A stretch of 39,082 bases of DNA from IMG/VR virus record IMGVR_UViG_3300009285_001166, positions 1 to 39,082 of that record, one strand, 5' to 3'. Shown piece after piece: positions 24,884 to 30,437 of the stretch. The stretch comes from a virus. How positions within the stretch are numbered: the first letter of the stretch is position 1; each line of letters begins with the position of its first letter. The position numbers were made by a program, and so were the translations under genes. The notes beneath the pieces are model-generated. The model ran no database searches. It had not been told where the DNA came from and was given only the letters and a program-made list of their open reading frames with translations.

Positions 24884-25027
24884 AACCATGCGGACGTTTG
24901 CACCACCAACTGGAACCCGCGACTGTCACGAGTAGCGATGTCCAAAATCGTGAAAGATGTCGCTATGGCTCAACTCTGGTGGGAGTCCCATATTTTCTGC
25001 CCAAACACTCACTGAAGCGAGGGTGAC

Positions 25028-25285
25028 ATGGAAAACTACAAATTCCAGTGGAATCTACCATACGAGATCGATCCCGACGAATCAGAGATCACAGTCGAAT
25101 TCTGCGCGATCCCAGGCGAGGCGCAGACACGCGACTATCCTGGTTCTCCGCCCGTCGTGGAAATCGAACGTGTAACACGGGACGGCGTTCCAATCAATCC
25201 GCACGCATTCAAGTCGATCTACAAGGAACTGGAACAAGCGGCGTGGAATTATTTGGAAAGTCTTTTCGAGGAACGAGACGCATGA
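25028..25285 (+). CDS. Small phage protein
   Basis: An 85-aa acidic protein starting after a GAGGG site. It has the pattern of a common small phage family (VEFCAIPGEAQTRDYPGSPP, then VVEIERVTRDGVPINP), often found near NinG. Function unknown. Its stop overlaps the ninG-like ATG by ATGA. Confidence 0.65.
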   Translation: MENYKFQWNLPYEIDPDESEITVEFCAIPGEAQTRDYPGSPPVVEIERVTRDGVPINPHAFKSIYKELEQAAWNYLESLFEERDA

Positions 25286-25794
25286 ACAAGCGAGACAAGA
25301 TGCTCGAAAAAGCACGGGAGTACCAGATCGGCACCTACGTTAATCGGTTCGTCTCGAAGGACTTCCAGGCCCTGATTCGAGCGGAGGCGGCGGCAAAACC
25401 AGCGGGCATGACGCCTGCCGTTGTTTCAGGCGAAATGACCGACGTATTCCGGAAACCTGGACAATGCGTGTGCGTCACGTGCGGATCGGTGAAAGCCTGG
25501 AAAGGCGAAGGCTACGGGCAGATGGAAACCGGGCACTTCCTGGCAGGTCGTCGCGCATCGATCGTTCTGGACGAAGAGAATGTGGCGCCGCAGTGTTCCC
25601 ACTGCAACAAGCACCTATCCGGAAACCAAGTAGCGTTTCGTTTGTGGATGGAAACCGTCCGAGGCATTGAAGTGATCGAGCGGCTGGAGGCGTTGAAGCA
25701 GACGTCTCGCCAGTTTACCAGAGAGGAACTGGTTGACATGCGAATCGAATTCCGCCGTCGGCTGAAGGCGGCTGAAGAACAGATGAGTGGTTAA
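25282..25794 (+). CDS. NinG-like recombination protein (Rap family)
   Basis: A 170-aa protein of the lambda NinG/Rap group, structure-selective nucleases that act on recombination junctions. CVTCGSVKAW and the zinc-HNH-like part METGHFLAGRRASIVLDEEN, followed by PQCSHCNKHLSGNQVAF, form the family core. ATG 25282 is used because it overlaps the previous stop. It works in the recombination module with the annealing protein and exonuclease. Confidence 0.85.
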   Translation: MNKRDKMLEKAREYQIGTYVNRFVSKDFQALIRAEAAAKPAGMTPAVVSGEMTDVFRKPGQCVCVTCGSVKAWKGEGYGQMETGHFLAGRRASIVLDEENVAPQCSHCNKHLSGNQVAFRLWMETVRGIEVIERLEALKQTSRQFTREELVDMRIEFRRRLKAAEEQMSG

Positions 25795-25821
25795 ACGATA
25801 ATTCTTAACAGGAGAGAAACC

Positions 25822-27306
25822 GTGAGCAAGATCGAGTTGACAAACAGTGGACCCATCGAGGGAACCTTCGCGATTGACCTGTCGAAAGGCCCTGGAGCCT
25901 ACGAATTCCGCGGGGCGAGAGGAACGGGCAAGACGACCTGCATTTCGTCCATCGACTGGCTCGCCGGTCACAAGGTGGACGTGACGCTTCACGACGCGGC
26001 ACCCAGCGGCAAGGTTGAGGGATTCGGTGTCGTCGCACCAATCGGAGGCCGGAAGAGGCGAAAGGGAGACTTCGAACTCGACACGATCGATGCCGAGAAA
26101 TTCAGCCTGACGGATCTGATCGACCCTCCCGGCAAGACGCCGGAAGTGCGAGACGCGCACGCTATCAAGGCGCTGGCTGTCCTCTCTGAGGCGAAGGCCG
26201 ACGCGAAGCTCTACTACGATCTGGCTGGCGGGCAAGCGGAGTTTGACGCACTCGGAATCCAGACGACCGACGATCCGGTCCTTTTGGCAACGCGAGTCAA
26301 GAAGGCGTTCGATTCTGTCGCGAGCGAACGGAAGAACACGGCCGAGGCGGAAGCGAATCATGCGATTCCGTTGGAGCACGTTCCTGACGGCCTTGATCTG
26401 TCTCAGTCCTCCGATCTGGTGCAACTGGGCCGAGACCGTGACGAAGCACGCGACGAACTCCAGCGATTGACGACCGCGCGAGTCAACGGAATCGCAAGGG
26501 AAAACGAGATCAAAGCCGCCAAGGAAAGGCTCGCGAAGATCAAGGCCGAATACAGCGGCCCAACCGTCGAAGTCGCCGAAAAATCGAGGCAAGCAGCAAT
26601 CGACAAAGGCACGTCTTCCAAGGCCAAGGTCGAAGAACTCGAACGCGAACTGGACAAGTCCCGTGCTGCCGTCGAAGCGTGCAAGACCGAATACGTAGCT
26701 GCCAATTCGACCTACGAGGCTGCCAAATCGCATCAAGCCGCAGTCCAGGAACTTCAGACGCTCGCGTCTCAGGAAGTGACCTATCCTGACGACCAGATGA
26801 TTGCGAAGATTGCAAGCGCCGTGGAGGCCAACACAGCGGCCTACGATCGCGGTATCAGAATCCGCGACGTTCAGCAAAACCAGATCAAAGCGAAGGCCCA
26901 CCGATCATCCACAGAGAAGGCCGAGAAGGCCGAGAAGGAAGCACGCAACAAGGCCGGACAGGTCTTCGACATTCTGGCTCAGTCGCTTCACACGAAGCAC
27001 CTGGAGATTCACAGCGTCGACGGAAACCCCCGCCTGTTCGTGAAACATCCGAAGCGTGGCAAGACGGCTTTTGATCGCGTCAATGGCCTTAGCGACGGCG
27101 AGCGAGTGGACTTCACGCTCCGAGAGTTGCTTCCGCATATCGAATCGCCTGGACTACTGCCAATTCCCCAGCGAGTCTGGCAAGACCTTCAACCGACCGA
27201 CCGCACGAACCTCCACGCACTCGCCGTCGAGAAGGGGCTTTACCTCTTCGGAGCCCAGGTCGACGATGGAGAATTGCGTGTGGTGTACCTCGGAGATTCC
27301 GCTTGA
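25822..27306 (+). CDS. SMC/SbcC-like ATPase
   Basis: A 494-aa coiled-coil ATPase starting at GTG after AGGAGAG. The Walker A motif GARGTGKTT is at about residues 32-40. A long coiled coil spans about 180-390 (ELERELDKSRAAVEACKTEY). The C-terminal lobe has the family signature GLSDGERVDFT. Such proteins use ATP to act on DNA ends, usually with an SbcD-like nuclease; none is adjacent here, so it may use another partner. Confidence 0.75.
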   Translation: MSKIELTNSGPIEGTFAIDLSKGPGAYEFRGARGTGKTTCISSIDWLAGHKVDVTLHDAAPSGKVEGFGVVAPIGGRKRRKGDFELDTIDAEKFSLTDLIDPPGKTPEVRDAHAIKALAVLSEAKADAKLYYDLAGGQAEFDALGIQTTDDPVLLATRVKKAFDSVASERKNTAEAEANHAIPLEHVPDGLDLSQSSDLVQLGRDRDEARDELQRLTTARVNGIARENEIKAAKERLAKIKAEYSGPTVEVAEKSRQAAIDKGTSSKAKVEELERELDKSRAAVEACKTEYVAANSTYEAAKSHQAAVQELQTLASQEVTYPDDQMIAKIASAVEANTAAYDRGIRIRDVQQNQIKAKAHRSSTEKAEKAEKEARNKAGQVFDILAQSLHTKHLEIHSVDGNPRLFVKHPKRGKTAFDRVNGLSDGERVDFTLRELLPHIESPGLLPIPQRVWQDLQPTDRTNLHALAVEKGLYLFGAQVDDGELRVVYLGDSA

Positions 27307-27346
27307 CTACGTGCCACAGAGTGGGCACGAACCTGGAGAGGAAACG

Positions 27347-27589
27347 ATGGATAAATTCACACGGCCAACTGACATGCCGGGACGAGTGTGCAGAGTCCTC
27401 GAAGGGCTCGTAGCGGACAGTGACGATCCACTCGCGGGCGTGATTTACCGGTTCGCGCATGTTGCTTCCGGCCGCTGCGGGAATCCTCACAAAGCATGGG
27501 TGGATGAATTCGAGGCGGTGGAACAGGAAATGGAGCTGAGCTATTACACGTCGCCAGCGGAAAGGCGGGCCGCCAGAGAGGATCAGTGA
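27347..27589 (+). CDS. Small hypothetical protein
   Basis: An 80-aa protein with GGAGAGG as ribosome binding site, starting 40 bases after the ATPase gene. No family recognised. Sequence VYRFAHVASGRCGNPHKAW is not seen; the visible form is GVIYRFAHVASGRCG followed by an acidic helix. It ends the recombination block. Confidence 0.6.
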   Translation: MDKFTRPTDMPGRVCRVLEGLVADSDDPLAGVIYRFAHVASGRCGNPHKAWVDEFEAVEQEMELSYYTSPAERRAAREDQ

Positions 27590-27592
27590 CCA

Positions 27593-27612
27593 TTTTGTTG
27601 ACGCCAACAAAA
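27593..27612 (+). promoter_or_regulatory. Inverted repeat, operator candidate
   Basis: TTTTGTTG (27593-27600) and CAACAAAA (27605-27612) form a perfect 8-bp palindrome with a 4-base centre, 26 bases upstream of the strong promoter at 27638. It could be a repressor site, or a weak terminator for the block before it. Confidence 0.5.
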
Positions 27613-27637
27613 AGGTTGACGAGCGTTCGGAAAAACC

Positions 27638-27666
27638 TTGACACCATTTCCCGGACTCGCTATACT
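27638..27666 (+). promoter_or_regulatory. Strong promoter of the parB-helicase block
   Basis: TTGACA (27638-27643), exactly 17 bases, TATACT (27661-27666): nearly a perfect sigma-70 consensus and the best promoter in the window. Its transcript would start about 27673 and carry a leader of roughly 190 bases before the parB-like gene. Confidence 0.85.
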
Positions 27667-27715
27667 CGCCAGCAGTTGGGCGTTGTGGCCCAGAAAGAAG
27701 TCGAGTCATGAAGCA

Positions 27716-27839
27716 CGTTACCAATCCCGTCGCTTGGCCCTGCAATGAAGCTGCGCACTCTCTCCCAGGTAGTGCGTTGTGGAGCGGGGAACGGCGTCGA
27801 CTTCTGCCGTCCACAACCCAGGCGACGGGATTGGTAACG
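27716..27839 (+). ncRNA. Three-way-junction leader RNA
   Basis: Helix 1 is 22 pairs with one wobble: 27716-27737 (CGTTACCAATCCCGTCGC then TTGG) with 27818-27839. Inside, helix 2 is CGCACT (27754-27759) with AGTGCG (27771-27776), and helix 3 is TTGTGG (27777-27782) with CCACAA (27811-27816), continued by ACGGC (27791-27795) with GCCGT (27806-27810). The region sits between a strong promoter and the ribosome binding site of the parB-like gene. It could be a regulatory leader or a separate RNA. A 54-codon frame (27708-27872) crosses it; I think the structure is the real signal. Confidence 0.75.
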
Positions 27840-27864
27840 TTCGGAATTCTCTGGAGATTCTTCT

Positions 27865-28848
27865 ATGGATGACCTGCATATCTCGAAACGGCTCAAGGCT
27901 ATTCTTCCGGCCCTGGAAAAAGAGGACTTGGAACAACTAGAAAGAAACATCGAATCTGATGGGGAAATCATCGACCCCATCATCTTCTGGAACGACGGAA
28001 AGCGGAACGTCGTTCTCGATGGCATGCACCGACTCGCCATAGCCAAGAAAATGAACTTGGCATTCTCAAGGTTGGAAATCAAGATTGACGGCGGCTATGA
28101 CGAAGCCGCACTGTGGATTCTCGACCACGCACTCGGGCAACGAAACATCAAGCCATCCGTAATCCGCACGATTCGGGGAAAACTGTACAACCAATTAAAG
28201 CGTAAGGATGGGGGGCATGGAAGCCAAAAAGCGGAGTGTCAAAATGACACCCCGCTCAAGACGGCAGCAGAGAAAGCATCGGAAATTGCAGGGGTTTCCG
28301 AAAGCACCGTCAAAAGAGACGGAGCAAGAGTCGAGGCCATCGAGTCCATCACCAAGCCCGCTCAGGCCATCGCTGATCGGGCGACGGACGCTGAAATCAA
28401 GCGTCTGGCGAAACTCGATCCTGGCGACCAGACGAAGGTGGCCCGCATGGTTCGCGTCGGGCAGGCTGGCAGCGTTTCTGACGCATTGAAGCTGATAGGA
28501 AAGGACGGAAGTTCGGCAGGGAAGCCAGAGGAGTCAGACAGCCGGACGCCGAGGAAAGGCAAGGACAAACCGGCTGACTTGGGCAAGTGCCCGAACTGTG
28601 CCGGGACGAAGTGGAAGGAAGATAATTACGGCACCGTCTGCGCCAAGTGCCTTCATCCGCACGGAGAGAGTGCCGGCGACGTTGACGCCGATAGGGTGAA
28701 TACCCAACGGCAGAAGACCGTCAAAACGATTGAAGCCCTGATGCGTGCGTTCGACGACCTGCATCTGTTGCTGGCACGACCGGACGATCACAAGTATGCC
28801 GTCGATTCGTGCAAGGCTCTGCTGAAGACTGCGAGGGCATGGAAGTGA
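27865..28848 (+). CDS. ParB-like nuclease-domain protein
   Basis: A 327-aa protein with a ParB/sulfiredoxin-fold start, recognised by VVLDGMHRLAIAKKMNL, the family's GxHR box. A helix-turn-helix-like middle (KTAAEKASEIAGVSESTVKR) binds DNA in ParB proteins. The C-terminal part has a zinc ribbon (CPNC, then CAKC). In phages such proteins act in DNA modification, partition or CTP-dependent DNA binding. It is the first gene after the leader RNA and overlaps the helicase gene. Confidence 0.8.
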   Translation: MDDLHISKRLKAILPALEKEDLEQLERNIESDGEIIDPIIFWNDGKRNVVLDGMHRLAIAKKMNLAFSRLEIKIDGGYDEAALWILDHALGQRNIKPSVIRTIRGKLYNQLKRKDGGHGSQKAECQNDTPLKTAAEKASEIAGVSESTVKRDGARVEAIESITKPAQAIADRATDAEIKRLAKLDPGDQTKVARMVRVGQAGSVSDALKLIGKDGSSAGKPEESDSRTPRKGKDKPADLGKCPNCAGTKWKEDNYGTVCAKCLHPHGESAGDVDADRVNTQRQKTVKTIEALMRAFDDLHLLLARPDDHKYAVDSCKALLKTARAWK

Positions 28849-30437
28849 TCGAACTGCCGACCTTGTATCAGCATCAGGAATCGCTACGTGATCGCACAAG
28901 GGCCGCGCTCGCGAAGCATGGCCGGGTGATTCTCACGGCACCGCCTGGCATGGGCAAGACGCGGTGTTCCAAGTGGATTCTCGGAGCGAGTGCGAACAGG
29001 GAGCCGAACGAACGGCAGAGTGGGCACAGTCTTTTTGCCGTTCACCGCAGGGGCCTGGTTGACAACGCGGTGAATTCATTCGGCGAGGAACCGGAACTGC
29101 CCCATGCCGTGATTATGTCGGGCAGGGAAACAGACTACTCTGAGAGAATTCAGGTTGCCTCTATCGACTCGCTGCTGAGTTGGTTCATAGAGGATAACCA
29201 CTACAGGCCACGCCTCACGTTTGACCTGATCGTGTTCGACGAGGCGCACAGTCACCACCAGAAGCTCGCCCGATTTCTGAAGTACCACGACGCCAAACGC
29301 GAGGAAATGGGCTTGCATCCGGCCTACGTGATCGGACTGACGGCTACGCCGCAGGCGAAGGGGCTGGCAGATGTGTACAAGGAAATCGTGCTGGGGCCTT
29401 CCACGCAATGGCTGATCGACAACAAGTACCTTTCGCCATTCCGGTATTTCCGAGCAACAGAGGGCAAGCTAGGGCTACTTGTCAAACGTGGTGGGGAGTT
29501 CACGAAGGACAGTGTCTGCGAGGCGATGGACGGGCTTGCTGGCGATCTTGTACGCGACTGGAAGCAGTTCGCCGAGGGGCGGCCGACAGTCGGATTCTTT
29601 CCGAGGCGTTCTCACGCGAAGGATGCGATGGAACAACTTCAGCAGGCTGGGCTCCGAGTCGAGTACGTTGACGGGGAAACACCAGACGAGGAACGACGAA
29701 AAATATTCCGCTATCTGAACGGAGCACACATCGACTATCTCTGCAACGTCCAAGTGGTGGAGCGTGGTACGGACATTCCACGCATCGGGTGCGTGCAGGT
29801 ATGCACCGCTATTGGTTCGGTTGTTCGATGGCGGCAGATGATCGGCCGCGGGAGCCGGGTTCATCCAGAGAAATTAGATGTGATCGTGCTCGATCATGGG
29901 GGAAATCTGAAACGAGGGCTCGGTTTCTTCGAAAATGACCCGCTATGGTCGCTCGACGTTACCACGAAAGACCCAGGCGAAGCTGGCGCGAGGCCGACTA
30001 TCGAATGCCCGAAGTGCCATGCCATCTACCGAGGTGGCAAGTGCCGATATTGTGGCTACGAGCCGACGCCGCGCGAACGACGGGCGCAGGGACTCGAATT
30101 CAACGGCGCTGAACTGAAGGAAGTCACACGTGAGGAGAAGAAGGAAACCGCCGTCAAGAGTGCGGAAGAACTCATGATGTCTTCGCTCTACATGGCCGGA
30201 CGTACAGGGAGAACATGGCGGCAGTGCTGCGGCATATTCAAAAGCAAATGTGAAAAGCAGGGCACGAACTACCGCGTCCCAAAGTTCGTCACGGTTGGAG
30301 GCCACCGATACGAAATGCTGCGGTTCGGTTCGGACGACAGCAATCGCCGGGTGTCAATGCTATACCCGTTTACGAATGGCCAGCACGGTGGTTCATACTT
30401 GGTTAATCAACATCCGACAGTTGGAACACCTTACTAG
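28839..30437 (+). CDS. SF2 DEAD/DEAH-type helicase with zinc ribbon
   Basis: A 532-aa helicase that unwinds or translocates on nucleic acid using ATP. Motif I is APPGMGKTR, motif II VFDEAHSHH, motif III GLTATPQA, motif V ERGTDIPRI and motif VI QMIGRGSRVH. A zinc ribbon (CPKCHAIYRGGKCRYCGYE) follows the second RecA domain. ATG 28839 overlaps the ParB-like gene by 10 bases. It may be the replication or recombination helicase of this phage. Confidence 0.88.
   Translation: MEVIELPTLYQHQESLRDRTRAALAKHGRVILTAPPGMGKTRCSKWILGASANREPNERQSGHSLFAVHRRGLVDNAVNSFGEEPELPHAVIMSGRETDYSERIQVASIDSLLSWFIEDNHYRPRLTFDLIVFDEAHSHHQKLARFLKYHDAKREEMGLHPAYVIGLTATPQAKGLADVYKEIVLGPSTQWLIDNKYLSPFRYFRATEGKLGLLVKRGGEFTKDSVCEAMDGLAGDLVRDWKQFAEGRPTVGFFPRRSHAKDAMEQLQQAGLRVEYVDGETPDEERRKIFRYLNGAHIDYLCNVQVVERGTDIPRIGCVQVCTAIGSVVRWRQMIGRGSRVHPEKLDVIVLDHGGNLKRGLGFFENDPLWSLDVTTKDPGEAGARPTIECPKCHAIYRGGKCRYCGYEPTPRERRAQGLEFNGAELKEVTREEKKETAVKSAEELMMSSLYMAGRTGRTWRQCCGIFKSKCEKQGTNYRVPKFVTVGGHRYEMLRFGSDDSNRRVSMLYPFTNGQHGGSYLVNQHPTVGTPY

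Follow-up and report, generated by a model that had tools for sequence, protein, structure and literature searches.

A predicted three-way-junction leader RNA upstream of a phage ParB-like gene and a dispersed family of palindromes

In lambda and T7, phage operons carry structured 5′ leaders that are processed by RNase III. The phi29-type packaging RNA (pRNA) of phages, 120-170 nt long, has a three-way junction that is closed by pairing of its two ends, and in the msr-msd RNA of retrons inverted repeats close a multi-hairpin RNA. Here, we compare with these systems a locus from the window, that is, the whole stretch of DNA that was analysed, a single viral record of 39,082 bases. An initial annotation had described at this locus a strong promoter followed by a large folded RNA, and our analysis confirmed both the promoter match and the pairing in the sequence.

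The window carries genes for a gpA-type terminase, a lambda-type portal, a capsid with protease, a tape measure, an exonuclease, NinG, a ParB-like protein and a helicase. The large terminase is of the gpA type with its own nuclease domain, and its use as a query retrieved about 70 related phage records. Because the terminase relatives within bacterial assemblies were two Planctomycetota MAG contigs, the host of the phage probably belongs to the Planctomycetota. Among the approximately 70 terminase-related records, the ParB-like gene was absent except for C-terminal pieces and the helicase was absent too. No close relative was found in IMG/VR with the ParB-like or helicase queries, or in GTDB genomes with the ParB-like query.

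The strong promoter corresponded to a sigma-70-like site, TTGACA-17-TATACT, at 27638-27666 on the + strand, which matched 11 of 12 consensus positions and from which a transcript start at about 27672-27675 would be expected. It was the sole sigma-70-like site found in positions 25000-30000. Since shuffled sequences contained a mean of 1.3 such sites per 5 kb, one site per 5 kb is at chance level, and the promoter is therefore notable for its strength, its near-consensus match and its place rather than for its existence. Upstream of it lies a small gene of 80 aa (27347-27589, + strand), recognised by its translation and codon score and with no PHROG match, whose TGA codon (27587-27589) is followed right after by the arms of a palindrome. 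Downstream, about 40 nt 3′ of the promoter and on the same strand, begins the closing helix of the element (P1), and about 10 nt 3′ of P1 we read from the sequence a ribosome-binding site (GGAG within CTGGAGATTCTTCTATG, 27851-27856, + strand). As originally described, the element thus stands directly 5′ of the ParB-like gene, which has its own Shine-Dalgarno just past P1. This gene (27865-28848, + strand, 327 aa; PHROG 4715, ParB-like partition protein, E = 1.4e-5) encodes a ParB N domain followed by a C-terminal region with Cys-rich motifs (alignment A3). It overlaps the DNA helicase gene (28809-30437, + strand; PHROG 16, E = 6.8e-67), which places both in the same operon. On the + strand, no terminator was predicted from the promoter to the ParB-like start at 27865.

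Both the fold and the inverted-repeat search identified the arms of P1 on the + strand, ACGTTACCAATCCCGTCGCTTGG at 27715-27737 and CCAGGCGACGGGATTGGTAACGT at 27818-27840. They are 96% complementary, lie 80 nt apart and form 23 pairs, 22 Watson-Crick and one G-U. The helix of 22 pairs with one wobble that had been proposed to close 124 bases (27716-27839) fits P1, to which our analysis adds one further outer A-U pair. P1 was the longest uninterrupted helix of the window with arms within 220 nt, and the notion that such a long pairing is unlikely by chance held: in 60 dinucleotide-shuffled versions of the window, the longest helix reached a maximum of 18 pairs (mean 13.7). Similarly, the predicted fold of 27718-27841 had an energy of -66.3 kcal/mol compared to -41.9 +/- 3.8 in the shuffles (z = -6.36; none of 200 as good), while the - strand folded more weakly (z = -4.81). 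The two inner helices that had been noticed were recovered as P2 and P3 inside P1, which gives a predicted three-way junction. P2 (27738-27789, + strand) pairs CCCTGC (27738-27743) with 27784-27789, and its helix is continued by a hairpin with arms 27753-27759 and 27771-27777. The P3 hairpin (27791-27810, + strand) has its stem at 27791-27796 and 27805-27810 and its loop, TCGACTTC, at 27797-27804. Along the sequence, P1 is followed immediately by P2, then by one base, P3, seven bases and the returning strand of P1.

The predicted leader also contains a candidate pseudoknot. All eight bases of the P3 loop are complementary to GAAGTCGA at 27697-27704, and the pairing comprises nine bases when 27696/27805 is counted, the 5′ strand being the leader segment AGAAGTCGA (27696-27704, + strand). 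The energy of the loop-leader pairing was -11.2 kcal/mol and 1 out of 3000 flank shuffles was equally good, an optimistic figure given that the match was spotted while reading the fold. This complementarity supports the RNA reading, because such a match is not expected from an inverted repeat alone. A masking of the Shine-Dalgarno by the apical loop of P2 was also considered and rejected, since 878 out of 3000 shuffles equalled it.

Searches for relatives of the RNA were negative throughout. The element had been said to match no known riboswitch class, and in agreement with this, Rfam gave no match at the gathering threshold or up to E = 5. The leader RNA was not found in 50 phage records sharing the terminase. 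At 80 loci with distant ParB-like genes, a covariance model built from the single sequence (R1) found none, and among 88 other loci the best upstream helix had 16 pairs, compared to 24 in this phage when one mismatch was allowed. With nothing similar at these 88 loci, we rejected the element as a general or conserved leader of phage ParB-like genes. In 294 Planctomycetota genomes, neither R1 nor BLAST detected an RNA homologue; a weak R1 match in another genome (E = 0.008) was an 81-base hairpin and was not accepted. BLAST of the element against phage and plasmid collections gave E values of about 2 or worse. The leader RNA, unusual as its stability is, is thus an orphan in everything searched; that no homologue was found in which to count compensatory changes weighs against the leader reading. 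The closest relative of the ParB-like C-terminus (G032, L088) shares 65% identity over 84 residues, and there the gene overlaps the preceding one with zero intergenic space for a leader, suggesting that the leader is either dispensable or recent. In that contig (L088, 1-1095), the ParB-like C-terminal domain is joined to a different N-terminal domain, and about 430 bases are directly repeated at that end of the contig, which may therefore be misassembled.

Because a ribosome-binding site for the ParB-like gene follows closely and no terminator intervenes, the element is best read as a structured 5′ leader for the operon of the ParB-like and helicase genes, a reading that we hold tentatively, as a little short of an even chance. 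Promoter, structured RNA and gene, the combination that characterises the leader class, are placed on one terminator-free transcript by sequence prediction only; that the region is transcribed, that its RNA folds in this way in the cell and forms the pseudoknot, and that it regulates at any step are inferences. The region would then control a replication operon of the phage, and the strong host-type promoter would start a transcript near 27673 and the first ~190 nucleotides would form a rigid leader with the 23-pair stem closing the three-way junction. According to the model, pairing of the P3 loop with the segment 5′ of P1 probably locks this fold as a pseudoknot. After the leader, the same transcript would carry the ParB-like gene and the helicase. 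The leader would most likely be cis-acting, shielding the 5′ end or offering an RNase III processing site, and would set the usage of the ribosome-binding site 10 nt past P1.

The compact self-contained fold, the long closing helix and the strong promoter of its own would also suit a separate small non-coding RNA of ~170-200 nt, trimmed by RNase III around P1, whose targets in the phage or the host would be reached in trans while the ParB operon is expressed through leakage or from upstream, and a candidate pseudoknot is a trait of many stable non-coding RNAs. However, no terminator is predicted 3′ of P1, the arms have no second match in the phage itself, and the lack of homologues in phages, plasmids and the 294 Planctomycetota genomes also counts against such an RNA, which we consider unlikely. 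Equally doubtful, and together with the small RNA the main rival reading, is that the element works as DNA, either as a site at which the ParB-like protein or the helicase binds, meets a cruciform or starts replication, or as a mobile inverted-repeat remnant, the RNA fold being a by-product. The identity of the next genes, a ParB-like DNA-binding protein and a helicase, would agree with it, as would the absence of the element at the equivalent place in the closest relative. In addition, folding as single-stranded DNA with DNA energy parameters was about as significant as RNA folding (z = -6.97), which would also allow roles at the DNA level. Against them, a DNA site would have no need for the further folding between the arms or for the match of that sequence to the leader, and the arms have no flanking direct repeats or target-site duplication and no second copy in the phage; for the lack of both a flanking direct repeat and a second copy, a mobile inverted-repeat element (MITE) was rejected.

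It is much less probable that the 54-codon open frame at 27708-27872 (+ strand) is a translated small gene and the pairing incidental. The frame crosses the element without a stop codon and, as translationally coupled genes do, overlaps the start of the ParB-like gene, and its codon score (-0.02 bits per codon) falls between those of gene pieces of that length (0.23 +/- 0.12) and off-frame sequence (-0.34 +/- 0.20). Nevertheless, this score is 2.2 sd below that of gene pieces, the sequence contains no clear Shine-Dalgarno for the frame, and phage and plasmid BLAST yielded no sequence relative. A small gene would also leave unexplained a 23-pair helix that is longer than any in the 60 shuffles. 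The frame is probably non-coding, and the structured leader stays the reading that we prefer.

The palindrome upstream of the promoter, ACCATTTTGTTGACGCCAACAAAAAGGT (27589-27616, as a strand-neutral feature), with the core TTTTGTTGACGCCAACAAAA at 27593-27612, belongs to a family that is dispersed in phages and also occurs inside dinD genes. The family was defined as CCATTTT-N12-AAAATGG, with outer CATTTT/AAAA(TG) arms and self-complementary inner arms (GTTG/CAAC). The window copy (27590-27612) has the left half and the inner arms exactly and reads AAAAAGG, not AAAATGG, in the right outer arm. BLAST with the region matched only at the palindrome, in Bifidobacterium phages, Synechococcus phages and gut phages, and a search of IMG/VR with CCATTTTGTTG-N4-CAACAAAA gave at least 120 matches. 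Many unrelated phages carry this motif too, so that the palindrome is more than a product of local chance. The outer arms alone gave at least 112 distinct sites; among these listed sites, which are not a random sample, all four inner pairs were present in 13 and at least three in 50, compared to about 0.4 and 5.7 expected with a pairing probability of 0.25 per position. The inner arms varied among the matches listed, GTTG/CAAC being the commonest and CCTG/CAGG, CGTG/CACG, GCTG/CAGC and GCCG/CGGC occurring as well. The palindrome had been taken to suggest added control of the promoter. It proved to be real and recurrent in unrelated phages, but the family is not generally linked to promoters: sigma-70-like sites (at least 11/12) lay beside 1.6% of the 127 palindromes listed and at 0.9% of random places, which is not an enrichment, so we rejected the idea that these palindromes are, as a rule, operators tied to a promoter. 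A literature search with its sequence found no paper.

Several particular sites were also noted. Two different versions of the palindrome adjoin in the same intergenic region at L005:3978-4035 and at L109 ~725-792. In the pairs L361:971 / L342:3027 and L433:13663 / L392:1639, the flanks are the same and the inner arms differ, as if the site had been exchanged or re-specified. In L110:960-1080, L131, L160, L096, L114 and L419, the palindrome is a hairpin within a conserved, possibly structured region laid out as CCCCC...GCATCATCC...palindrome...AGGAGCTAAGC...GGGGG, which has no Rfam name and in several contigs has a tRNA gene close by. Elsewhere, the palindrome forms part of the coding sequence in a family of phage portal-protein genes (L103, L118, L129, L132, L135, L138, L152, L153, L155, L182 and L195), HK97-type according to NCBIfam (L103), where it reads RFVGVNKMV and resembles the DinD peptide.

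In the damage-response gene dinD, the palindrome is located at about codons 62-70 and reads DHFVDVNKMV. Such copies were found in an Akkermansia phage, Streptococcus satellites, Bacteroidota plasmids and Planctomycetota genomes. Free-standing and dinD copies taken together, the loci noted for the family were window 27589-27616 and L302-L304, L307, L308, L310 and L312-L327. Between dinD genes the arms covary, with amino-acid changes: besides GTTG/CAAC, we observed CCTG/CAGG (L319), CGTG/CACG (L316), GCTG/CAGC (L327) and CATTTCG/CGAAATG (L313). That both arms change together along with amino acids points to selection on the dinD DNA or mRNA rather than on the protein only. A dinD remnant was rejected as the origin of the palindrome, given that only 8 out of 142 listed sites were in dinD-like sequence; the other 134 were outside dinD, and the neighbours sampled were mixed genes. 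Among the papers listed for DinD, none dealt with such a site. It is conceivable, though quite improbable in our estimate, that the palindromes form an undescribed family of sites of variable specificity, in which proteins of the DinD type (BRO-N) would each recognise the copy within their own gene, whose arms change together between dinD lineages, and matching copies in unrelated phages would serve as operators or cut sites, the one described here gating the promoter of a pseudoknotted leader RNA for the replication operon.

As an RNA, the element would be another orphan structured leader and evidence of large undescribed control RNAs in phages outside model hosts; an orphan leader without relatives is hard to build on. 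The palindrome family is the more surprising result and matters more than the RNA, as its paired changes within genes and its free-standing phage copies suggest a common recognition system.

Regarding the palindrome only, DinD/BRO-N genes (NF008573, PF02498) are the nearest comparison, since they contain a near-identical palindrome in coding sequence at the codons given above, whereas the window palindrome is intergenic and no BRO-N gene was present among the scanned window proteins. With the retron msr-msd RNA, the element shares inverted repeats that close a multi-hairpin RNA, but its neighbour gene is ParB-like and the scan of window proteins revealed no reverse transcriptase. Like the phi29-type pRNA, it would be a phage RNA with a three-way junction closed by pairing of its ends; in contrast, the gpA-type terminase of this phage implies a different packaging motor and no terminase gene lies beside the element. 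The gpA nuclease domain of the terminase, in place of a phi29-like packaging ATPase, and the lack of an Rfam match speak against identity with the pRNA. Compared to the leaders of the lambda and T7 type, the element has no sequence or Rfam relationship, its stem is much longer and more perfect, with a three-way junction and a possible pseudoknot, and its processing is a proposal, while what it has in common with them is a long stable stem directly 5′ of an early or replication gene, predicted on the same transcript.
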